64,000 nucleotides of DNA from Stentor roeselii (lineage: Eukaryota > Ciliophora > Heterotrichea > Heterotrichida > Stentoridae): the NCBI GenBank assembly GCA_006503475.1, contig RSEH01000002.1:62001-126000 (forward strand), read 5' to 3'. The position numbers were made by a program, and so were the translations under genes. Below, in pieces: positions 1,457-10,182 of this stretch (position 1 is the first letter of the stretch; the number at the start of each line of letters is the position of its first letter). The notes beneath the pieces are model-generated. The model was given only the letters and a program-made list of their open reading frames with translations, ran no database searches and was not told the DNA's origin.

Positions 1457-1884
1457 ATAGTAATTCTTTTTTACTTGGGTTATTTGAAGTGAATTTGAAA
1501 ATTTGTCTAAGGTTTATGTTGGAAGGTGATAATTGATTGATAGTATTTGCTCTGATTAGGGAGTTTATGAATTTATTATTATTATATAATTAGATTTGGA
1601 TCAAACAGGAGTTCTTTTAAGGATTTACATAAATTATCGAAAAGTGCATGTTTTAGGTTTTTCAATATGATTAAGATCAAATAATCATTGTCGAGAATTT
1701 TAGTTGATTGAGATCTCCAAGAAATTATCCAAAACTAATTATCTATTTCTAAAAGATATTAGGTTTACGAAAATTTATATAATATTTTTTTTTATGAGAA
1801 ACTAGGAACATAAAAGGAACAAAGAAGACTCATTCAGATTTCCTTTATATTTATCATAATCATTATAATAATACTCAATAATGT
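1457..1884. other. intergenic, nothing recognised
   Basis: AT-rich spacer between uL23m and the first small-RNA element. I see no ORF, tRNA, or repeat shared with the rest of the window. Confidence 0.5.
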
Positions 1885-2052
1885 AAAAAGCAAGCGCTTA
1901 AGGTGATATTTTAACCATTTAAGGTGTTAATAACCATTTAAGGTGTTAATAACCATTTAAGGTGTTAATATCCCTTTAATTTTTTTGTTTTTTTTTTTTC
2001 GGGAATGATAAGAATTCATTCAAATCGAAGTAACCTTTAAGCTGGAGCTTAC
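1885..2052 (-). ncRNA. structured small RNA gene, copy A (about 168 nt)
   Basis: Read on the minus strand, it begins GTAAGCTCCAGCTTAAAGG at 2052, continues TTACTTCG, and ends GCGCTTGCTTTTT at 1885, an oligo-T end typical of RNA polymerase III. The ends pair: GTAAGC with GCTTGC (one G-U), then GCTTAAAGGT with ACCTTAAGC (one bulged A), leaving TCCA bulged in the 5' strand. The middle holds three copies of a unit of about 17-18 nt built on CACCTTAAATGGTTA, plus TCCC/GGGA flanking a long A-run. Seven sister copies lie within 8 kb. It is divergent to the derlin-like gene at 2224. RNA function is unknown; expression is inferred from promoter, structure and terminator only. Confidence 0.72.
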
Positions 2053-2110
2053 CTTTCTTCAACCATTTTATTTAAATAGTTATCTAATTTTTTTGTTTTT
2101 AATATGGGAT
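2053..2110 (-). promoter_or_regulatory. external Pol III-type promoter of RNA copy A
   Basis: ATCCCATATT (complement of 2101-2110) lies 48 nt before the RNA 5' end. TATTTAAATA starts at -26. Box, spacing and TATA placement are shared with the other copies, while the rest of the spacer is not conserved. Confidence 0.68.
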
Positions 2111-2223
2111 GATAATCATTCATATTAAATTCTAATTACCCAAAAAATTCCTACTCTAATACTTCAACTAAATACTTTAATAAATCTCTCAATCCTTTTC
2201 CGATCTAACAAACAAATAAAAAA

Positions 2224-3048
2224 ATGAATCAAGAAAACGAGTTGATAACAAATCGTCTAAGTGCATGGTGGAAATCCATACCAATATTCAACCTGATCCT
2301 AATTACTCTAACATCAATATCAAGCATTCTCACCCTGCCCTTCATATTCGAAACCCCTATAACCCAGAATTTCACTTACAGTCCATACACCATGCTCAAG
2401 ACCCAATCTTACTACACAATTCTGACATACCCCTTTATTTGTTTCGGTATTCCACAAGCAATAATCCTGATCTACTCTTACCAGTCCTTTTCAGTTCCAA
2501 AAGAGAAATCAATCGGAACATTTCGTTTTATTCTTTATTTCTTCATCCAAAACACAATCATTGCGATTTTCTTCATCCCCATTTCTATCTTCGCAGGTGA
2601 AAACCTTATTGAATCCACTTTCATCAATCTCTACATGGCTGGCCTTTGGCCAGCCCTAATGGCTGAAGTAATTATTGACTCTTACAAGGATTCCAACAAA
2701 GAAGTCAATTTTTTGTGTTTTACTTGCAAAATTAAAAATAAGTACTACCCTTTGATACTTTTTGTCCTTTTTTCATTCATCGCTGCTGCGATCTTTATGC
2801 TGATTGCTGGAGTTATTACTGGATTTATTTGTAAGAGGTATTTAGATGCTTTTGGATGGATGGACTGGAGTCATATCAGTGATTCTTGTGCTGAGAAGGT
2901 TGAAAGAAAAGCTTGTTGCTGCCTTTTTAAGATGAAGAGATTTGTTTCGATTGCTGAGTCTGAATTTGAAATGCAGCCTGCTGCTTTGCCTCAGTCTCGA
3001 GAACCTTCTCCACCTTTTGCTGGGACTGGGTATCGACTTGGAGGGTAG
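2224..3048 (+). CDS. derlin/rhomboid-like ER membrane protein with SHP box
   Basis: A polytopic membrane protein of the derlin (rhomboid pseudoprotease) type: it starts with a WWKSIP motif near residues 16-21, has about five to six hydrophobic segments, and a rhomboid-like KEKSIGTFRF loop. The tail ends PFAGTGYRLGG, a good match to the SHP box with which derlins bind the p97/Cdc48 ATPase, so a role in ER-associated degradation is likely. A 15-nt intron, 2831-2845 (GTAAGAGGTATTTAG), is hidden in frame: removing it gives 269 residues and aligns GFIYAFGWMDW with the spliced paralogue at 6233 (GYLHLFEIMKW), with the same phase-1 position. It begins with ATG after an A-rich leader. UBAC2-like rather than classical derlin cannot be excluded. 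Confidence 0.78.
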   Translation: MNQENELITNRLSAWWKSIPIFNLILITLTSISSILTLPFIFETPITQNFTYSPYTMLKTQSYYTILTYPFICFGIPQAIILIYSYQSFSVPKEKSIGTFRFILYFFIQNTIIAIFFIPISIFAGENLIESTFINLYMAGLWPALMAEVIIDSYKDSNKEVNFLCFTCKIKNKYYPLILFVLFSFIAAAIFMLIAGVITGFICKRYLDAFGWMDWSHISDSCAEKVERKACCCLFKMKRFVSIAESEFEMQPAALPQSREPSPPFAGTGYRLGG

Positions 3049-3316
3049 TAGGTATTAATTTAAGCTATGTTCTTAAATTAAGTGGTGAAATTTTTAGTCA
3101 AATGTTTAGATTTTTAGGTATTTTGGGTATATGATTATTTTAGAGGATGTTTTGAAAAGTTTGGTTTAAGGATTTCAGAGTTTATTATTATGAAGGTTTA
3201 TTAGGATAAATTATTCGAAAAATTTTGATGTTGATAGATTTTAAAGATTTACTTTTGAGGAATCTAGGAAATTTAAATGGAGGTTAGCTGTAGTAGTCTT
3301 TTAGGTTGTAAATAAT
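3049..3316. other. intergenic, part of a tandem duplication
   Basis: AT-rich DNA after the derlin-like gene. The part next to the stop resembles 4690-4949 after the pseudogene. Nothing else recognised. Confidence 0.4.
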
Positions 3317-3400
3317 AAAAGCAAGCGCTTAAGGCGATAAGTTAACCAAATTTTTTTGGTATATAAGAAGAACACGAAGTAGCCTTTAAGCTTGAGCTAC
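3317..3400 (-). ncRNA. structured small RNA gene, copy B (about 84 nt)
   Basis: The shortest copy. The minus strand runs from GTAGCTCAAGCTTAAAGG at 3400 through CTACTTCG to GCGCTTGCTTTT at 3317. The middle is a single hairpin, ACCAAA-loop-TTTGGT, replacing the repeated units of copy A. The 5' CTAC change (others TTAC) and the GTAGCTC start show natural variation. It is most like copy D, in keeping with the tandem duplication around the derlin gene. Confidence 0.7.
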
Positions 3401-3458
3401 AATTTCATAAAACTTTTCATTTTATTTTTGCTTTGATTTTGCTATTTTAATATGGGAT
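3401..3458 (-). promoter_or_regulatory. external Pol III-type promoter of RNA copy B
   Basis: ATCCCATATT (complement of 3449-3458), exactly 48 nt before the RNA start. The stretch around -28 to -19 is AAAATAAAAT, a weak TATA-like element. Confidence 0.65.
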
Positions 3459-3660
3459 TCATAACCCTCAAAATCAACCTTATGTATAACTCAAATAATT
3501 TTATAAGAAATTCAATTCTAGTTTATCCATTAACTTCATTCGAAAATAAATATGATTTATCTGATCCATAATTAATCAAAATCTATTATCATGAATTAAA
3601 TGAATATTTTAATAAGCAAGCTTACTGATTAGCTTCTTCTATGTTCTTTGTTTTTTTTTT

Positions 3661-3787
3661 AAAAAAGCAAGCGCTTAAGGTGGTAGATTTAACCATTTAA
3701 GGTGATGATATCCCTTTATTTTTTTTTTTTTTTTTTTGGGAAGATGAAATTTTCTCAAAACGAAGTAACCTTTAAGCTGGAGCTTAC
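3661..3787 (-). ncRNA. structured small RNA gene, copy C (about 127 nt)
   Basis: The minus strand runs from GTAAGCTCCAGCTTAAAGG at 3787, then TTACTTCG, to GCGCTTGCTTTTTT at 3661. The middle has one CACCTTAAATGG unit (copy A has three) and TCCC/GGGA around a homopolymer A-tract. It is the duplicate of copy A, and lies in the same place relative to the derlin pseudogene as A does to the intact gene. Confidence 0.7.
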
Positions 3788-3845
3788 CTTTCTTTAACTA
3801 TTTTATTTATATAGTTATATAATTATTTTGTATTTAATATGGGAT
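3788..3845 (-). promoter_or_regulatory. external Pol III-type promoter of RNA copy C
   Basis: ATCCCATATT (complement of 3836-3845), 48 nt before the RNA start, with a clear TATATAAATAAAA beginning at -26. Confidence 0.68.
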
Positions 3846-3967
3846 AATAAACATTCAATTAAATTCTAAAAGGAATTTCGTTTTTATTCTAACTTTACAA
3901 CCGAATACTTAAATAAATTAAATTCATATACTTCTTCCCCATCTTGACTAATAAAAAATTTATATAA

Positions 3968-4692
3968 ATGAACTAATCACAAATCATCCTACTAAATAAT
4001 GAAAATTATTATCAAAATTCAGCCTCATTCAAATTAATCGAATATCGATATCCAAATCTCAACTATCATTCATATTCGAACTAATTCATCGTACATCTTT
4101 CTATATTTCATATACCTGAGACTCAATCTTACTGCAAAATTCTTTCCTGCTCTTTATTTTATTATGGCTAAACACAAGCAATAGTCCTGATATACTGTTA
4201 GCAGTGCTTTTCAATCGGAACTATTCGTTTTATTGTTTATTTCTTCATCAAAACACGATTATTGAGATTTATTCATCCCTTTTCTCTCTTCGATAAATAA
4301 TTCCTGTACATCAAAATCTATCTGATTGAAGTGATTTTTTAATCTTGCAAGGGTCTCAAAAAGTAGTCAATTTCTGTATTTTACTTGAAAAATGAAAAAC
4401 AAGTATTACCCTCTCATACTTTTATTTCTTTTCATTCATTCCTGAGAGATCTCTATAATGATTGCTATATTTCTCATAAGACTCATATTTAAGAGATATT
4501 TAGATGCTTTGGATGATAGACTAGACTCAAATTAGTGATTTGTGATGAGAAGGTAGAAGGAAATATTTGTTGCTTTTTTAAGTATGAGAGATTTATTTAT
4601 ATTGGTCAGTCTGAATTCTAATGGAAATTGATTCTTTTCTTTAGGTTCTACAGCTTGATGTACCTTTTCAGGAAAGAGATCAAGTAGGAGGG
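3968..4692 (+). pseudogene. decayed copy of the derlin-like gene at 2224
   Basis: Nucleotide similarity to 2224-3048 is evident along the length, for example around CAATCTTACT.CA, TCGTTTTATT.TTTATTTCTTCAT, AACAAGTA.TACCCT and AGATATTTAGATGCTTT, but there are many in-frame stops and small deletions and no long frame remains. It keeps a degenerate trace of the 15-nt intron (TTAAGAGATATTTAG near 4489), so it came from genomic duplication, not retrocopying. The flanking RNA genes were copied with it. It is a host gene remnant. Confidence 0.85.
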
Positions 4693-4949
4693 ATTAATTT
4701 AAGTTTTGATTATAGAAATAATTGATGAATTACTTAAATGGGTTTGAATTATTAATTTTTTGTTATTATGATTGATAATTATTAGGAAGTGTTGCAAGAA
4801 TCGGATAATTTTTTTGCTAAACTCAGAATTTTTTTTGTATTAGTGAACCTAGTACAAATAGATATATATTCAAAGTTGATGTTGATTAATAATAATAGCT
4901 GATCAGTCAGCTGAAATTTTCTTGAGTCTTCCTAAATTCCTTTAAAAAC

Positions 4950-5038
4950 AAAAAGCAAGCGCTCAAGGTGATAGAGTTAACCAAATTTCTTTGGTAGTGC
5001 ATGGCGAACTGATGAAGTAACCTTTAAGCTAGAGCTAC
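4950..5038 (-). ncRNA. structured small RNA gene, copy D (about 89 nt)
   Basis: The minus strand runs from GTAGCTCTAGCTTAAAGG at 5038, then TTACTTCATC, to GAGCGCTTGCTTTTT at 4950. Its single apical hairpin is ACCAAA/TTTGGT, as in copy B, but the loop-side sequence differs. The 3' stem strand has CTTGAGC where copy A has CTTAAGC. Confidence 0.7.
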
Positions 5039-5096
5039 AATTACTTAAAACATTTTCTATTATATTTTAGTTTATTTTTTAATTTTAATATGGGAT
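5039..5096 (-). promoter_or_regulatory. external Pol III-type promoter of RNA copy D
   Basis: ATCCCATATT (complement of 5087-5096), 48 nt before the RNA start; TATAATA begins at -26. Confidence 0.66.
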
Positions 5097-5363
5097 GCAA
5101 CAGGCTTAGAGAATGGTCTGATATCTTAGTAAAATAATTTATTAAATATCAATTTATTCATCATTAGTAATCGTTTTTTACAATTTAACTAATTTTTGAC
5201 TTTCACTAATCTTACCTAATTCAAGTCCTATCAATACCTAATCCAAGAGAGATATGATTAAATGTCTTTGCTCATATTCAATCAAATCAATTATCATAAT
5301 TAAATAAATGATTTTTTTTTGCAACTAATTGACTTTCTGTTTGCTTTCAGTTTCTTTATAAAT

Positions 5364-5466
5364 AAAAGCCAAGCGCTCAAGGTGGTAAGGTTGACCAATT
5401 AAGGTGGGTAATCCCTTGGGGAAGGGAAACAATCGTTAAAGAAGTAACCTTTGAGCTGATGCTTAC
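5364..5466 (-). ncRNA. structured small RNA gene, copy E (about 103 nt)
   Basis: The minus strand runs from GTAAGCATCAGCTCAAAGG at 5466, then TTACTTC, to GAGCGCTTGGCTTTT at 5364. Here both strands of the closing stem are changed together relative to copy A (GCTCAAAGG with CCTTGAGC), a compensatory pair. The middle has one CACCTTAATTGGT unit and a perfect six-pair hairpin, TCCCTT-CCCC-AAGGGA in the RNA. Confidence 0.7.
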
Positions 5467-5525
5467 ATTTATAGAAAACGAATTCATTTAATATTGCTTT
5501 AATTTTTTCGAATTAAATATGGGAT
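5467..5525 (-). promoter_or_regulatory. external Pol III-type promoter of RNA copy E
   Basis: ATCCCATATT (complement of 5516-5525), here 49 nt before the RNA start instead of 48. TATTAAAT begins at about -27. Confidence 0.62.
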
Positions 5526-6232
5526 TAATTAGGTCAACTAATCTAGTACTAAAAAACCTCTCGTTCTACTTAGAAACTAAGGATTATAAGTAAATGAATA
5601 AATATATCATGCATTATGATTTAAATTCATTTATTGATTTGAGCCTTATTGGTCATATTTAATTTTAAGAGTTCCTTTGGTGTTATTTGACCATTAATAA
5701 ATCCAAGTAATATATGGATATTTAAAACTTGCTTCTTCTTTTCTTCGATTTGTTAATTAGCTCTTTAACATCCTAACTATAATATTACCTTATGTCTTAA
5801 GATAGATTCAACTAAGTAGAAATCATATAATTTTCTTATAAAATTTTAAATAAGTGATTTTAATATTATTTCCTAATGAATATTTTGTTTAAGTAATAAT
5901 TTAAGCTTCTAATAAACTGGAAAAGTACTCTATTTAATGAATCATTGAATTTATCATATCTAAAAGAATAGCTTAAGTAATACTATTCAAAATTCTAAGA
6001 AAAATGCAGTATGATAGATAAGTGGCCATGATTTTATTCATTTAAATGACTAGAAATATTTGTTTGATGTTATAACTGAATTAAGCAGTATAAATTTACA
6101 TGTTGCAGGAAGAAAAAATCACTAATTAATATTTTGAAGTAGCCTCTGGTTTTATAACAATTAGTCATCTTCCTTTGAATTATTCCTGATTCCTAACTTA
6201 AAAGGCTTTTCCTATATTGATTTATTTAATAA
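5526..6232. other. intergenic, nothing recognised
   Basis: About 700 bp of AT-rich DNA between RNA copy E and the second derlin-like gene. No ORF, tRNA, conserved RNA box or clear repeat found by eye. Confidence 0.45.
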
Positions 6233-7087
6233 ATGTTTAGGTTTAGCTCTAGTAGTTCACCAGAAACCTTTAAGGCTTGGTGGAAGTCTATTCCTTTATT
6301 TACTTTTTTTGTGTTTTGTGTTTCTTTGGTTACTGGGATTCTTGGACTGATGATGCTTTGGCTGGATTTTTGGCAGAATTTTTTCATGCATTTGGTTTTC
6401 AACCCTATAGTTCTGTTAGTTTTGCAAAACTATTACTCGGTCTTTACATTCCCTTATATATCCCTCGAGCCTCTAAATGCTATTTTATCAATCTTCAGCT
6501 ACCAAGTTTACTCTATTAAAAAAGAAAAAGAATTAGGAACCCTTCGATTTTTCTTTTATTTCCTTATAAACAACCTGGTTGTAAGTTTCATCTACCTTCT
6601 CGTGGCAAGTCTTTGTTTCAGACTAGGAGTTTCTCCCCTTTCCTACTTTTTCAAGCTCTTCTTATTCGGTCTGTGGCCTATGATTATGATGGAAATGGTT
6701 AAAGAATGCAACCAAGACCCAGAACAGCCTTCATATTTTATGTGCTTTCCAATCAAAATAAAAAAAAAATACTATCCTTGGGTATTTGCTATTTTCTTTT
6801 CGGTGATTTACGGATTGATAATCGAAGTTTTTGTGGGGATCTTCGTTGGCTACCTTCGTAAACTCTAAACAGACCTATTTGAAATAATGAAATGGACAGA
6901 ATTATCAGAAGAAAAAGGTAAAAAACTAGAAGAAACCCTATCAAAACCTCTTTTTTACTTTTTAAGATATGTAAAAGCAGAAGGATCTTCAGATCTGAAC
7001 CCAGTGATTCTCCCAGGTCCCAGTTTTGAAGTCAACTTTCCAGGTATCGGTGTGAGACTTGGAACTGGGCCAGCAGAAAGTAAGTAG
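6233..7087 (+). CDS. derlin/rhomboid-like membrane protein, paralogue with one 15-nt intron
   Basis: This paralogue of the 2224 gene opens with KAWWKSIPLF and has the same rhomboid-like KEKELGTLRF loop and about six hydrophobic segments. The frame stops after residue 211 unless GTAAACTCTAAACAG (6858-6872) is spliced out. Splicing gives 279 residues in which GYLHLFEIMKWTEL aligns with the paralogue, and brings in a tail with FPGIGVRLGTG, an SHP box for p97 binding. Intron length, phase 1 and position match the hidden intron of the 2224 gene. Likely ER-associated degradation. The start ATG follows AATAA. Confidence 0.82.
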
Positions 7088-7143
7088 ATTAAGTCTTTAT
7101 TCTATTTTGTATTTAAACTAAATTATCATCGTTGATGGTATGA

Positions 7144-7227
7144 GCATACATGGCCGAGCGGTCTAAGGCGATAGACTCAAGATCTACTGGAAGTAATTCC
7201 GCGTGAGTTCAAATCTCACTGTATGCA
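7144..7227 (+). tRNA. tRNA-Leu(CAA)
   Basis: An 84-nt cloverleaf with a long variable arm. The acceptor GCATACA pairs with TGTATGC, the D-arm contains TGGCCGAGCGGTCTAAGGC (class II Leu type), the anticodon loop is CTCAAGA, and the T-arm is GAGTTCAAATCTC. The discriminator is A. The outermost anticodon-stem pair appears to be A-C. No intron. Followed by CTTTTTATTTTTTTT, a Pol III terminator. Confidence 0.93.
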
Positions 7228-7513
7228 CTTTTTATTTTTTTTGAGGATTCTGATGATGACTGATGGTTTCTGTGAGTGAGGAAGATGGAAGAGTTAGTGA
7301 CTTTAGAAAGAGTTATTTTTTAGAGAAAGGGTTTTTGATTGGATTTTTTAGTGTTTTTTTAATTTAGGATTTTTTTGGGTGGAATAAAGAATTTTAGAAA
7401 TTTTTATTTGAGAGGTGAGTTGATGGAAGATAATATTTAGAGTTCTTTTAAAGTTAATTATCTTTTAAGATTAGATGGATTTAGATGGTTCTGATGAGAA
7501 TTTTTGATAATTT
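7228..7513. other. intergenic after tRNA-Leu
   Basis: The tRNA terminator T-tracts lie at the left edge. The rest is T-rich spacer up to the promoter of RNA copy F, with no gene seen. Confidence 0.45.
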
Positions 7514-7571
7514 GTCCCATATTAGAAATTTAAAAAGATATAGTTAATAAAAAGAAATTTTAGATTTATTT
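7514..7571 (+). promoter_or_regulatory. external Pol III-type promoter of RNA copy F
   Basis: GTCCCATATT at 7514-7523 (first base differs from the family), exactly 48 nt before the RNA start at 7572; TTAATAAAAA lies at -28 to -19. Confidence 0.66.
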
Positions 7572-7678
7572 ATAAGCTCTAGCTTAAAGGTTACTTCGAT
7601 TTGATGAATTGGAAGCACTATGGATTCCAGCCGGCTAAAGTTTCCATGGTTAATTATCACCTCGAGCGCTTGCTTTTT
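7572..7678 (+). ncRNA. structured small RNA gene, copy F (about 107 nt)
   Basis: It runs ATAAGCTCTAGCTTAAAGG, TTACTTCG, then a variable domain, then ATCACCTCGAGCGCTTGCTTTTT. The apical hairpin pairs ACTATGGA with TCCATGGT (7 of 8 pairs), and its loop contains the palindrome AGCCGGCT. The terminal pairs ATAAGC/GCTTGC are kept. It is on the plus strand, opposite to copies A-E. Confidence 0.72.
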
Positions 7679-7973
7679 GCAGAGATTTCAATATAGATTG
7701 AAAGTTTTAGAACTTGCTAAATTATTATATTAAAGGTTTATAAAAAGGCTGTGATTAATAGAGTTTAAAACTTTTGATATATGAAGAGCTACTGAGATCA
7801 TAAATATTATTTAATAGTAAATTATCTAATTTTAGTCTATTTTTAATGTCTATAAGTGTATATATTTTTTCTAATGTTTGTGAGCCCTTGTCGAAATTAG
7901 CATCTAATTAGAAAGAGCACTGAAATATTCGAATTTAAAATTAAGGTCTATAATTTAAAATATTTCAAAAAAT
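7679..7973. other. intergenic between RNA copies F and G
   Basis: AT-rich spacer of about 295 bp. Parts resemble the spacer after copy G (8140-8441): both carry 'ATTGAAAGT', a 'AAAAGGCT.TGATTA.AATAG' stretch and 'AAAATTTGATAT'-like words, suggesting F and G arose by tandem duplication. Confidence 0.45.
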
Positions 7974-8031
7974 ATCCCATATTAAAAACATAAAATATTT
8001 TATAGTATATATATAATTATTGTAGAGAATT
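7974..8031 (+). promoter_or_regulatory. external Pol III-type promoter of RNA copy G
   Basis: ATCCCATATT at 7974-7983, 48 nt before the RNA start, with the best TATA box of the family (TATATATATAA beginning at -26). Confidence 0.7.
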
Positions 8032-8139
8032 GTAAGCTCTAGCTTAAAGGCTACTTCAGCTGTCTAAAGTGTTATACCATTGGTTTCTAGCCGGCTTCTG
8101 ATTCTAATGGTTACTTATAACCTTGAGCGCTTGCTTTTT
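8032..8139 (+). ncRNA. structured small RNA gene, copy G (about 108 nt)
   Basis: It runs GTAAGCTCTAGCTTAAAGG, CTACTTCAGC, then ACCATT-loop-AATGGT, then TAACCTTGAGCGCTTGCTTTTT. The loop again holds AGCCGGCT, although the hairpin stem differs from copy F. That pattern (stem changed, pairing kept, loop palindrome kept) is evidence for a selected RNA fold. Confidence 0.74.
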
Positions 8140-8441
8140 GTCAATGATACTCATAGGTATTGAAAGTAATAAAATTTTGATATGATCATGAAATGGTTTT
8201 GATGAAAAGGCTCTGATTAGAATAGCTTCAAAAAATTTGATATTTTTGAAACTTCTATAGTATGAAGATTGTATATTTTGGTTGATTTTTTCAAAATTAG
8301 GTATTATTTGAAATAGTTGTGAGTTTATTTACTTTTTGATAATTGGAGGTTCTTCTAAAGAATATTTCTCATAAATCAGGGGAAGTACTAAAATCTAGAA
8401 CTTTAAATATAGGCTTGATTATTATAAAATATTTTTAAAGT

Positions 8442-8545
8442 ATTCCTATAATATTTTTATATGGTTTATATATATTATTATTGTAGAAAGCTGTAGTCTC
8501 TAGCTTAAAAAATCCTCACATCTTTTATCACCTTAAGTCCTAGCT
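8442..8545 (+). pseudogene. decayed small RNA gene, copy H
   Basis: Recognisable remnants in order: ATTCCTATAA (degraded promoter box, 8442-8451), a TATATATATTATTATT stretch, GTAGTCTCTAGCTTAAAAAAT (5' domain, near 8493), and TTATCACCTTAAGTCCTAGCTCT (3' strand, ending near 8545). The TTACTTC block and the oligo-T end are lost, and the middle is deleted. I read it as a dead copy of the F/G type. Confidence 0.6.
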
Positions 8546-8987
8546 CTAAGTATATTTTTTAAGTATTGAAATTATTGAAATTTTCTTAGAACGTAATTTA
8601 AAATCTGAATTTTAATAGAGATTCCTGCATTTTTTATATAGAGCCTATTTATATTGAAAAGAATCATTTCAAGCATAACCTAGAGACTAATTAATTTTTT
8701 TCTCTAATAATGAGAGTATAAAGGTTTATTCATATTGACCAAACATTCCTTTAAAATAACTTAAAGACATTAGGCACTGGCAAATATATAAAAAAATAGT
8801 GTGATATAAATGGATAAAAAAATGTTTAATATTTAACTCAAATTCCTTCAATTCTTAGGAAACTTTAATATCAATAATGAGAGGGAACTGAATATTTTAA
8901 GTTTCTTAATTACTATTCTTTATCTACATAGCTTGTACAATTGGAAGTATTTTGTTTAACAAACATCTATCAATAGACTTAATAAAT
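8546..8987. other. intergenic, nothing recognised
   Basis: AT-rich spacer between decayed copy H and copy I, with no ORF or shared element. Confidence 0.4.
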
Positions 8988-9194
8988 AAAAAAGCAAGCG
9001 CTCAAGGTGTTGTTGACCATTTAAGGTGTAGAGTAACCATTTAAGGTGATATTAACCATTTAAGGTGATATGTAACCATTTAAGGTGCTAAGGTTAACCG
9101 TTTAAGGTGATAGTTACCATTTAAGGTGATAGTTTCCCCGTAAGGGATGAATTCTTTGATAATTTTTTGAAGTAACCTTTAAGCAGGAGCTTAC
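8988..9194 (-). ncRNA. structured small RNA gene, copy I (about 207 nt, expanded repeats)
   Basis: The minus strand runs from GTAAGCTCCTGCTTAAAGG at 9194, then TTACTTC, to GAGCGCTTGCTTTTTT at 8988. Between the closing strands there are six CACCTTAAA(T/C)GGT units spaced about 19-22 nt apart, the largest expansion in the family, plus a TCCC/GGGA hairpin. Each unit repeats the ATCACCTTAA word of the closing stem's own 3' strand, so alternative registers of pairing with the 5' strand are possible. Confidence 0.72.
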
Positions 9195-9252
9195 ACATCA
9201 AAGCAAAAAATTTTAAAATACTCTCCATTTTTTTATTATTTAAATATGGGAT
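9195..9252 (-). promoter_or_regulatory. external Pol III-type promoter of RNA copy I
   Basis: ATCCCATATT (complement of 9243-9252), 48 nt before the RNA start; TATTTTAAAA begins at -26. Confidence 0.68.
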
Positions 9253-9591
9253 TCAGCGAAAAAAGGTAGAATTTTAAGTAAATAAGTTCTTTCAAGGATC
9301 TAATAAGGAAATTCAAATCTTATATTGACTTATAAGTATAAAGTATAATCTTCATCTCGTACAAAAATTTTAATATTCTTATGGCTACTAATTCCAGATC
9401 AGTAAATTTTTTCTCAAAATAACTCATAACTTAAAACTAATGATTAAATTCCAAATATTCCTCAAACCTTATAATTATCAAAATAATTCCTAATCCATCC
9501 TAATCACCTAAACTTTCCAAAGAAAAATAATCTTCCAATAAAACCCTTACAAACCAAAAATCCTAAAAAATTCGAATAATAAATTCCTTCC
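9253..9591. other. intergenic, nothing recognised
   Basis: AT-rich spacer between the promoter of RNA copy I and the stop codon of the UBA-protein gene. No feature seen. Confidence 0.4.
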
Positions 9592-10182
9592 TTAACTATC
9601 AAATAAATCATTAAGCGCTTGCTCAACATTAAAATTGGCTTTAATCAAGGCATTCCTGCATTTATTAGGATCAGTGAATCCATAATCCTTTAAAACTTTC
9701 ATCCCTTCAGCCAATCTCGGGTCATCACTTCCAGTTTTTCCAGTCTTTCCAGTTTTTCCTCTAGTAACCCTTGAATTACTCCTAACCAAAGCCTCCTTCT
9801 GTTCATTATTTCTTCGAGGTGGATCAGGCTCTTTATTAAGTCCTAAAAGATCCACAGAAGCCGGAGGCTTCTGCTGAAAATCAAAAACTTCTTGTTTTTG
9901 TTGTCCAAAGACAGCAGAAGGGTCATAAGGAGCAGCTTCAAGTATTTTTTTCATGACTTCATCAACTGAAAAAATCCAGACTAGTTCAGCATCACTTTCA
10001 ACAGCAGCTTGATAATTAGCGTCATTTTGCTCTAAAGCGCTTTGTTGGTCCTTCAACAAAATAGCCATTTCAGGTACCTTGAAAGTTTTACTTAGGTGAA
10101 AAAGAACTTCACCCAGGGTGTTAGGCGCTTTGAGCCATTTGATTCGTCCGATGGGTGTTAAAATGAGGATTTCTTTAGACAT
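9592..10182 (-). CDS. UBA-domain protein
   Basis: 196 residues. The last 40 or so (about 155-196, RLAEGMKVLKDYGFTDPNKCRNALIKANFNVEQALNDLFD) form a UBA domain, a three-helix ubiquitin-binding module; the 'GF.d...c..AL...n.nve.Alndl' pattern is clear. The N-terminal 100 residues could be ubiquitin-like (MSKEILILTPIGRIKWLKAPNTLGEVLFHLSKTF), which would make it a UBL-UBA shuttle-type or autophagy-related adaptor, but that fold is a guess. The linker is charged and carries a GKTGKTGKTG repeat. The start codon at 10182 is the one followed by the full frame; several copies of this 5' end lie upstream. Confidence 0.72.
   Translation of the reverse strand: MSKEILILTPIGRIKWLKAPNTLGEVLFHLSKTFKVPEMAILLKDQQSALEQNDANYQAAVESDAELVWIFSVDEVMKKILEAAPYDPSAVFGQQKQEVFDFQQKPPASVDLLGLNKEPDPPRRNNEQKEALVRSNSRVTRGKTGKTGKTGSDDPRLAEGMKVLKDYGFTDPNKCRNALIKANFNVEQALNDLFDS

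Follow-up and report, generated by a model that had tools for sequence, protein, structure and literature searches.

Vault RNAs belong to vaults, RNA–protein particles of very large size that are poorly understood. The literature searched, as far as its listings and excerpts go, reports vault RNAs from animals and trypanosomatids but none from ciliates; the function of vaults is given as still unknown (PMC13100048, in excerpt). The genes of vertebrate vault RNAs are described as carrying an internal B box (excerpts of PMC7058938 and PMC7904556). The proposal of TBsRNA-10 as the trypanosome vault RNA was based on short stretches of 5′ and 3′ similarity within a terminal helix with a bulge (excerpts of PMC9326685 and PMC12547018). 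The window, i.e., the whole stretch of 64,000 nucleotides of Stentor roeselii DNA analyzed here, contains eight intact copies and one decayed copy of a small-RNA gene. As judged by sequence, the eight genes of the cluster very probably encode vault RNAs in this heterotrich ciliate; polymerase III would make these RNAs, and a TEP1-type protein would bind them within vaults.

Copies, ends, and growth of the cluster

The intact copies A to H lie within one 7.4-kb stretch (Table 1). Common to all eight are a 5′ domain, a 3′ domain, and a closing stem with a bulge, and their positions and strands are those that the original prediction had assigned to them; the seven intact copies of its title are a miscount, as eight are listed in its text. 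Seven of the eight copies contain the 5′ motif AGCTYAAAGGYTACTTC unchanged, and H contains it with one mismatch; five contain an unchanged 3′ motif ACCTTRAGCGCTTGCTTTT, which has one mismatch each in B and F and two in E. The 3′ arm of each gene features a GCGCT block, and T-runs of 4–6 close the 3′ end of all eight copies. Each copy holds between zero and six internal repeat units of the ACCUUAAAUGG type, at total lengths of 84–207 nt; the ACCUUAA half of such a unit is a repeat of the 3′ strand of the terminal helix.

Table 1. Vault-RNA-like genes, decayed copy, and upstream promoter elements (PSE) in the window; offset 30 is counted from the start of the PSE
Feature	Positions	Strand	Length or distance	Internal units, offset 30, or remark	Rfam Vault match
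Gene A, vault-RNA-like	1885–2052	−	168 nt	3 internal ACCTTAAATGG-type units	none at E ≤ 10
Gene B, vault-RNA-like	3317–3400	−	84 nt, shortest		23.2 bits, E 0.17
Gene C, vault-RNA-like	3661–3787	−	127 nt	1 unit; mid-gene poly(A) stretch	24.2 bits, E 0.089
Gene D, vault-RNA-like	4950–5038	−	89 nt		25.2 bits, E 0.048
Gene E, vault-RNA-like	5364–5466	−	103 nt	1 unit	21.6 bits, E 0.5
Gene F, vault-RNA-like	7572–7678	+	107 nt		19.2 bits, E 2.3
Gene G, vault-RNA-like	8032–8139	+	108 nt		29.1 bits, E 0.0036 (best)
Gene H, vault-RNA-like	8988–9194	−	207 nt, longest	6 units	none at E ≤ 10
Decayed copy	8490–8560, approximate, by eye	+		next in F/G tandem duplication; degenerate RNA ends	
PSE of A, CCCATATT	2101–2108	−	56 bp upstream of 5′ helix	TATTTAAA at offset 30	
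PSE of B	3449–3456	−	56 bp upstream	AATAAAAT at offset 30	
PSE of C	3836–3843	−	56 bp upstream	TATATAAA at offset 30	
PSE of D	5087–5094	−	56 bp upstream	TATAATAG at offset 30	
PSE of E	5516–5523	−	57 bp upstream	TATTAAAT at offset 30	
PSE of F	7516–7523	+	56 bp upstream	AATAAAAA at offset 30	
PSE of G	7976–7983	+	56 bp upstream	TATATATA at offset 30	
PSE of H	9243–9250	−	56 bp upstream	TATTTTAA at offset 30	

Alignment of all eight copies in MAFFT misplaced the 3′ ends, and, hence, model R1 was built from six copies. Alignment A2 likewise consists of six copies, with A and H excluded because their repeats were misaligned in MAFFT. Gene A is recovered in full by R1 with 57.5 bits though it is absent from the training set, and gene H reaches 39.6 bits over 9067–9194 only, the 3′ half of R1 being placed on an inner unit.

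A search of the whole 44.39 Mb genome that allowed one mismatch places the 5′ motif at the eight copies only (9 matches for the backwards control); with two mismatches allowed, the 3′ motif is found at the eight copies and one other place (control: 4). Searches of this assembly found no further copies, and the eight other matches of R1 over 200 kb, all above E 0.5, are taken as chance. In collections of viral contigs and genome contigs, a pattern of PSE plus 5′ arm has no match, which carries little weight because both collections are non-ciliate. Genome-wide dispersal had been proposed as a check on the claim of a functional RNA; all copies found lie in the one cluster, which leaves that claim unrefuted. 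A SINE or another mobile element derived from a small RNA would likewise be multi-copy and feature an A-box-like block and a T-run, but has next to no probability here, given that the eight copies are confined to a single 7.4-kb stretch of the assembly and sit within longer tandemly duplicated segments, which also contain a protein gene. The cluster expanded by tandem duplication. The duplication 7499–8048/7959–8509 maps the start of G onto about 8492, where the decayed copy lies; this copy is visible by eye and is placed here as in Table 1, against 8442–8545 in the original prediction. The decayed copy is without an exact PSE CCCATATT, is missed by R1, and has a folding energy no better than that of shuffles. 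The ER-degradation genes once named as neighbors are not among the five window proteins scanned with Pfam: one is a protein kinase, one has a Myosin_TH1 match below cut-off, and three are without a family.

Likeness to the Rfam vault RNA family

The Rfam Vault model (RF00006) has a gathering cut-off of 34 bits. It matches six of the eight copies over model positions 1–99 with 19.2–29.1 bits (E 0.0036 to 2.3), so that none of the eight reaches the gathering score. The remaining 54,301 bases of the window hold no Vault match at E ≤ 10, and the genome-wide matches at this threshold are C, D, F, and G only (49 of 2842 first-look candidates scored). Of the 14 control genomes, seven (those named are all prokaryotes) also yield Vault matches at this threshold, and, therefore, weak matches of this kind alone mean little; in addition, with the copies being paralogues, their matches do not count as independent. 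When the Rfam Vault consensus for the 5′ end (23 letters) is compared with both strands of the window, its eight best places are exactly the eight copies, with 16–18 of 23 letters matched as against 15 at the next best place. Shuffled versions of the first 40 bases reach the match of the respective copy in 0 of 2000 cases for seven copies and in 1 of 2000 for B.

The block AGCTYAAAGG, which we take to be the A box, is exact in seven copies and has one mismatch in H. This A-box-like block is followed by TTACTTC in six copies and by CTACTTC in B and G. In both the copies and RF00006, an A-box block with TTACTTC is located near the 5′ end and GCGCT near the 3′ end, and both feature a terminal helix of 4 pairs, one unpaired A, and 4 pairs, a variable middle, and a T-run. 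The family had been described as new-looking; this description does not hold, since the Rfam Vault RNA has the same ends, bulged stem, and block of A box plus TTACTTC, and since vault proteins are encoded in the genome. The copies differ from RF00006 in the upstream PSE with a TATA-like stretch, in a middle enlarged by repeat units to up to 207 nt, and in having a 4-nt bulge at a place where both strands of the Rfam model are unpaired. A further difference concerns the B box of vertebrate vault RNAs, a box not known to be general among vault RNA genes, which the Stentor copies lack: GTTCRA is found in none of the eight, and GGTTCGANTCC, with two mismatches allowed, is about as frequent in the window as chance predicts, F being the only copy that contains it, on the other strand.

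A-box-like words are found in many polymerase III genes. The absent B box and the Rfam scores below the gathering cut-off would, together with this, also fit a family of polymerase III RNAs that is specific to ciliates and resembles vault RNA in its 5′ arm by a shared A box only. Such a family is an unlikely explanation, as the likeness reaches past the A box to TTACTTC, GCGCT, and the 4+1+4 helix, and as MVP and a TEP1-type protein are present in the genome.

The closing stem of 15 pairs and a 4-nt bulge is paired in 95.5% of cells in the six copies of A2 and is nearly invariant among them. Its covariation in A2 is not above that of shuffles: the number of pairs with two-sided changes is reached by 182 of 500 shuffles and the covariation score by 122 of 500. 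Among the 8 pairs of the inner F/G helix, two are changed on both sides and two on one side. Of the statement that pairing is kept while sequence changes, the part on the inner helix is borne out and the part on the closing stem is not; as proof of structure, the covariation is weak. Support from folding energy is mostly weak as well, because the z-scores against shuffles range from −0.47 to −3.05 (F −0.47, D −0.51, G −0.97, B −1.75, H −1.93, E −2.03, C −2.31, A −3.05).

Promoter element and polymerase

The PSE CCCATATT, an element of the snRNA type, is located 56–57 bp upstream in all eight copies; it occurs 9 times in the window against 1.24 expected, and eight of these occurrences belong to copies. 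Offset 30–37 consists of A and T only in seven of eight copies, against a background of 8.8%. The same upstream element is also found at the U6, RNase P, SRP, and U2 RNA genes of the genome, the U6 version being CCCATATC. The U6, RNase P, and SRP RNA genes resemble the copies in combining the PSE with a TATA-like stretch, also at offset 30, and U6 is the only one of these three yardstick genes that is A/T-only over offset 30–37. The distance from the PSE to the Rfam start is 59 for U6, 60 for RNase P, and 59 for SRP (with the Metazoa_SRP start; 76 with that of Protozoa_SRP), compared with 56–57 in the vault-RNA-like copies. In U2, CCCATATT is located 55 bp upstream, nearer to the 56–57 of the copies than the 59 of U6. 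U2 is usually a polymerase II gene. Because U2 shares CCCATATT at 55 bp, the PSE and its spacing do not settle the polymerase; the T-runs (8/8) and the TATA-like stretch speak for polymerase III. The shared ends, the fixed spacing of a promoter element common to U6, RNase P, SRP, and U2, and the T-run ends make the multi-copy functional RNA of the original prediction well supported from sequence.

In ciliates, telomerase RNAs are short, made by polymerase III, and driven by a PSE promoter, and the copies fit in size and promoter type. Nevertheless, it is extremely improbable that they are telomerase RNA genes: none of five telomere-template words occurs in any of the eight, no telomerase RNA family is among the Rfam matches listed for 1500–9700 at E ≤ 10, and eight diverged copies are found in one place. 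The shared upstream element could help locate other small RNA genes of heterotrichs; the paper on Stentor snRNAs (PMC9505925) makes no mention of promoter, upstream, or vault.

Vault proteins and comparison with described vaults

The genome contains three full-length major vault protein (MVP) genes of 844, 838, and 829 aa, each with the five MVP Pfam families above cut-off; one of the proteins, compared with a solved MVP, aligned over residues 2–842. It contains, in addition, one TROVE gene. In a tree that includes fish TEP1 and, for Ro60, bacterial proteins but no vertebrate ones, the TROVE protein groups with fish TEP1, and a 100/100 branch separates bacterial Ro60. TEP1 is the protein that binds vault RNA. 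The NACHT and WD40 parts of animal TEP1 were not seen in a Pfam scan of the TROVE ORF, which has a vWA_Ro60 match below cut-off (22.3 bits vs 27.7); with solved RO60, the protein gives a weak match at E 0.0003.

Y RNAs, the small polymerase III RNAs bound by Ro60, have a bulged closing helix and, in Ro60, a TROVE partner. This general plan resembles that of the copies, and the weak vWA_Ro60 match points the same way. However, the Rfam matches listed for 1500–9700 at E ≤ 10 include Vault and no Y RNA family, and the Stentor TROVE protein lies on the TEP1 side, apart from bacterial Ro60, its match to RO60 being weak; Y RNA genes are, hence, a highly improbable reading.

If the copies are vault RNA genes, each RNA would be made by RNA polymerase III, and base pairing between its two ends would form a terminal helix with a bulge, in a layout like that of the Rfam vault model (6 pairs, then the bulge, 4 pairs, an unpaired A, and 4 pairs). 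The TEP1-type TROVE protein would bind this helix, and the RNP would be enclosed in shells built from the MVPs. The paralogues would differ from one another in the fast-changing middle, with its zero to six ACCUUAAAUGG-type units. Such a cluster in a ciliate like Stentor suggests that vault RNA is older than animals; a ciliate vault RNA, if true, would root the RNA, beyond the shell protein alone, deep in eukaryotes. Further, and more tentatively, the complete vault RNP, RNA included, may date to early eukaryotes, with the ciliate keeping vault RNA sequence that is still recognizable (TTACTTC after the A box, GCGCT, and the bulged helix) alongside three MVPs and a TEP1-type TROVE protein that stands alone; its paralogues would be graded in length by zero to six units, and the long ones may switch pairing registers. 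RNAi works in the genus Stentor (PMC4019465, in excerpt), and this large single cell would, if the reading is true, lend itself to the one-at-a-time removal of vault RNA, stand-alone TROVE protein, and MVPs.

Several clustered paralogues are also a feature of human VTRNA1 (excerpts of PMC7904556). The trypanosome system, as far as excerpts of PMC9326685 and PMC12547018 describe it, is similar in several respects: the assignment here, as for TBsRNA-10, is based on short stretches of 5′ and 3′ similarity within a terminal helix with a bulge; TEP1 is the only TROVE protein found in trypanosomes, and the Stentor genome likewise has one TROVE gene; and three MVP paralogues are present in both. The association of TBsRNA-10 with TEP1 and MVP comes from pull-down, whereas that of the Stentor RNAs is inferred. 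The RNA of L. braziliensis, at ~190 nt the longest known according to excerpts of PMC9326685, compares with a predicted 207 nt for H.

The small RNA gene cluster

The original prediction of a small RNA gene family with shared ends at 1885–9252 stands: eight intact vault-RNA-like copies, A to H, carry those ends and range in length from 84 to 207 nt. In the genome searched (44.39 Mb in 522 contigs, with the window at C179:62001–126000), the 5′ motif with one mismatch recovers exactly these eight. A pattern joining the upstream promoter element (PSE) to the 5′ arm yields seven matches, all in the cluster, and misses H by one letter; the backwards control yields none. The stretch 1849–3930 (A, the membrane-protein gene, B, and C) aligns with 3571–5606 (C, the decayed copy of this gene, D, and E) at 65.7% identity. 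Likewise, 7499–8048 (F and the first part of G) aligns at 65.8% with 7959–8509 (G and the first part of the decayed RNA copy). As read from the sequence, growth of the cluster is by tandem duplication, which counts against a mobile element, and this candidate was rejected.

Features of the cluster and reference small RNA genes (Vault scores from the E-value search of 1500–9700; offset 30, 30 bp after the PSE start)
Feature	Position	Strand	Rfam Vault score (bits)	ACCTTAAATGG-type units	Remark
A	1885–2052	−		3	
B	3317–3400	−	23.2	0	
C	3661–3787	−	24.2	1	
D	4950–5038	−	25.2	0	
E	5364–5466	−	21.6	1	
F	7572–7678	+	19.2	0	
G	8032–8139	+	29.1	0	
H	8988–9194	−		6	
Decayed copy	~8490–8560	+			
Membrane-protein-like frame, intact	2224–3048	+			between RNA genes
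Membrane-protein-like frame, decayed	about 3960–4680	+			co-duplicated with RNA genes
Membrane-protein-like frame, paralogue	6233–6868	+			by eye
tRNA-Leu(CAA)	7144–7228	+			separates minus-strand from plus-strand RNA genes
U6 RNA gene	C196:23876 (start)				CCCATATC 59 bp upstream of Rfam start; TATAAATA at offset 30
RNase P RNA gene	C97:45608 (start)				CCCATATT at 60; TATAAACA at offset 30
SRP RNA gene	C288:168346 (start)				CCCATATT at 59 (Metazoa_SRP start) or 76 (Protozoa_SRP start); AATAAATG at offset 30
U2 RNA gene	C18:116887 (start)				CCCATATT 55 bp upstream

The three membrane-protein-like frames form a local family interspersed among the RNA genes. The intact frame has no Pfam match, neither it nor the paralogue has an NCBIfam match, and the decayed one holds no open frame of 120 aa. 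At 9614–9624 (+), opposite the end of the frame 9592–10182 (−), a AGCGCTTGCTC word resembles the family's 3′ arm; it has no T-run and is probably due to chance.

Shared structure and variable middles

The closing stem features 15 pairs and a 4-nt bulge and is paired in 95.5% of the cells in an alignment of six copies, from which A and H were left out because their repeats spoiled the first alignment. The covariance model built from these six matches the whole of A (57.5 bits) and a part of H, 9067–9194 (39.6 bits), with the 3′ half placed on an inner unit. The proposal that pairing is kept as the sequence changes holds for the inner helix of F and G, where two two-sided and two one-sided changes among 8 pairs leave pairing intact, and fails for the closing stem, where covariation in the six-copy alignment shows no excess over shuffled controls. 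The strongest folding z-score is that of A (−3.05). Those of B, H, E, and C are modest, lying between −1.75 and −2.31, and F (−0.47), D (−0.51), and G (−0.97) score weakly. Hence, it is the common layout, rather than covariation statistics, that carries the structural claim. The 3′ strand of the terminal helix recurs in the ACCTTAA half of the ACCTTAAATGG-type units in the variable middle; as a guess, these units could therefore pair alternatively with the 5′ arm.

Promoter elements and polymerase

CCCATATT lies 56 bp upstream of the 5′ helix in all copies (57 bp in E). On both strands of the window it occurs nine times against 1.24 expected, and eight of the nine are the elements of the copies. 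The U6, RNase P, SRP, and U2 genes of this genome, all standard small RNA genes, share CCCATATT/C as an upstream element, which could serve to find further ones. U2 is usually a polymerase II gene; since it has CCCATATT too, the element belongs to snRNA-type genes generally. An A/T-only stretch occupies offset 30–37 in seven of the eight copies—compared with 8.8% of cluster 8-mers—and, among the yardsticks U6, RNase P, and SRP, in U6 alone. A T-run of 4–6 is present in all eight copies. Polymerase III is favored by this TATA-like stretch together with the T-run, not by CCCATATT. The copies show no B box. In vertebrates, vault RNA genes use internal boxes together with upstream elements (PMC7058938). 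Here the upstream elements may have assumed the promoter role, in which case the A-box-plus-TTACTTC block would owe its strong conservation to constraint at the RNA level.

Candidate vault partner proteins and likeness to vault RNA

The genome contains three major vault protein (MVP) genes (contigs C117, C510, and C104), each with the Vault, Vault_2, Vault_3, Vault_4, and MVP_shoulder families above cut-off. The C117 protein aligns with solved MVP over residues 2–842, and the closest species-named relatives of one MVP, among at least 120 listed, are from Stentor coeruleus (79% identity) and then Blepharisma stoltei (68%). The source is taken to be a heterotrich ciliate near Stentor, though not S. 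coeruleus itself. A single TROVE gene, on contig C19, encodes a putative TEP1-type vault RNA binder with a TROVE family match and a sub-cut-off Ro60 vWA match. The frame directly downstream (C19:74438–71936) looks like EMC1 of the ER membrane complex. Several relatives of the TROVE protein among the matches listed are source-named telomerase protein component 1; solved RO60 matches it at E 0.0003. In a tree of 20 of at least 120 relatives that included no vertebrate Ro60, its 99%-identical representative P0121 groups with fish TEP1 and with further rows that are ciliate or unnamed, and a 100/100 branch parts this side from the group with both Ro60-named rows, taken as bacterial. P0121 scores 207 bits with fish TEP1 versus 136 with a Ro60 row. 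TEP1 was discovered via its likeness to Tetrahymena p80 (PMC7916137), and a title referenced in PMC12547018 states that the p80-like region is enough for vault RNA binding. The gene anatomy and the presence of partner genes are demonstrated. Most likely, the RNAs would be made by polymerase III, their bulged terminal helix would be held by the TROVE protein, and the resulting RNP would be enclosed in MVP shells. No report of a ciliate vault RNA was found in the literature searched (Kolev 2019, on trypanosome vault RNA, lay outside it), and the accessible parts of PMC6315972, PMC7916137, and PMC9326685 report none.

At Rfam gathering thresholds the window yields three tRNAs only and no Vault RNA (RF00006). 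The E-value search of 1500–9700 places Vault RNA at six of the eight copies and nowhere else in this stretch (E 0.0036 to 2.3), all below the cut-off of 34 bits, with A and H unmatched; in 9700–64000 there is no Vault match at E≤10. The genome-wide search, in which 49 of 2842 candidates were scored, gives just four Vault matches at E≤10, namely copies C, D, F, and G, without B or E. Seven of 14 control genomes also match at this limit in the same search, so weak Vault matches by themselves mean little. In a separate check, a 23-letter piece of the Rfam 5′ consensus was slid ungapped over both window strands: the top eight positions coincide with the eight copies, with 16–18 matches, and the next position has 15. 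Shuffles of the first 40 bases reach the score of the copy in none of 2000 cases for seven copies and in one of 2000 for B.

The family, originally described as new-looking, follows the Vault RNA layout in the alignments and is where the 5′ consensus fits best. With the Rfam cut-off unreached and no B box, the copies are classed, on sequence grounds, as divergent vault RNA variants rather than proven family members. In the outer part, the copies have the 4-nt bulge, whereas the Rfam model has five unpaired letters per strand. The alignments of the six matched copies agree with the model in having the A-box block and UUACUUC in the 5′ arm; two sets of 4 pairs separated by one unpaired A; GCGCU on the 3′ side; and a T-run at the end.
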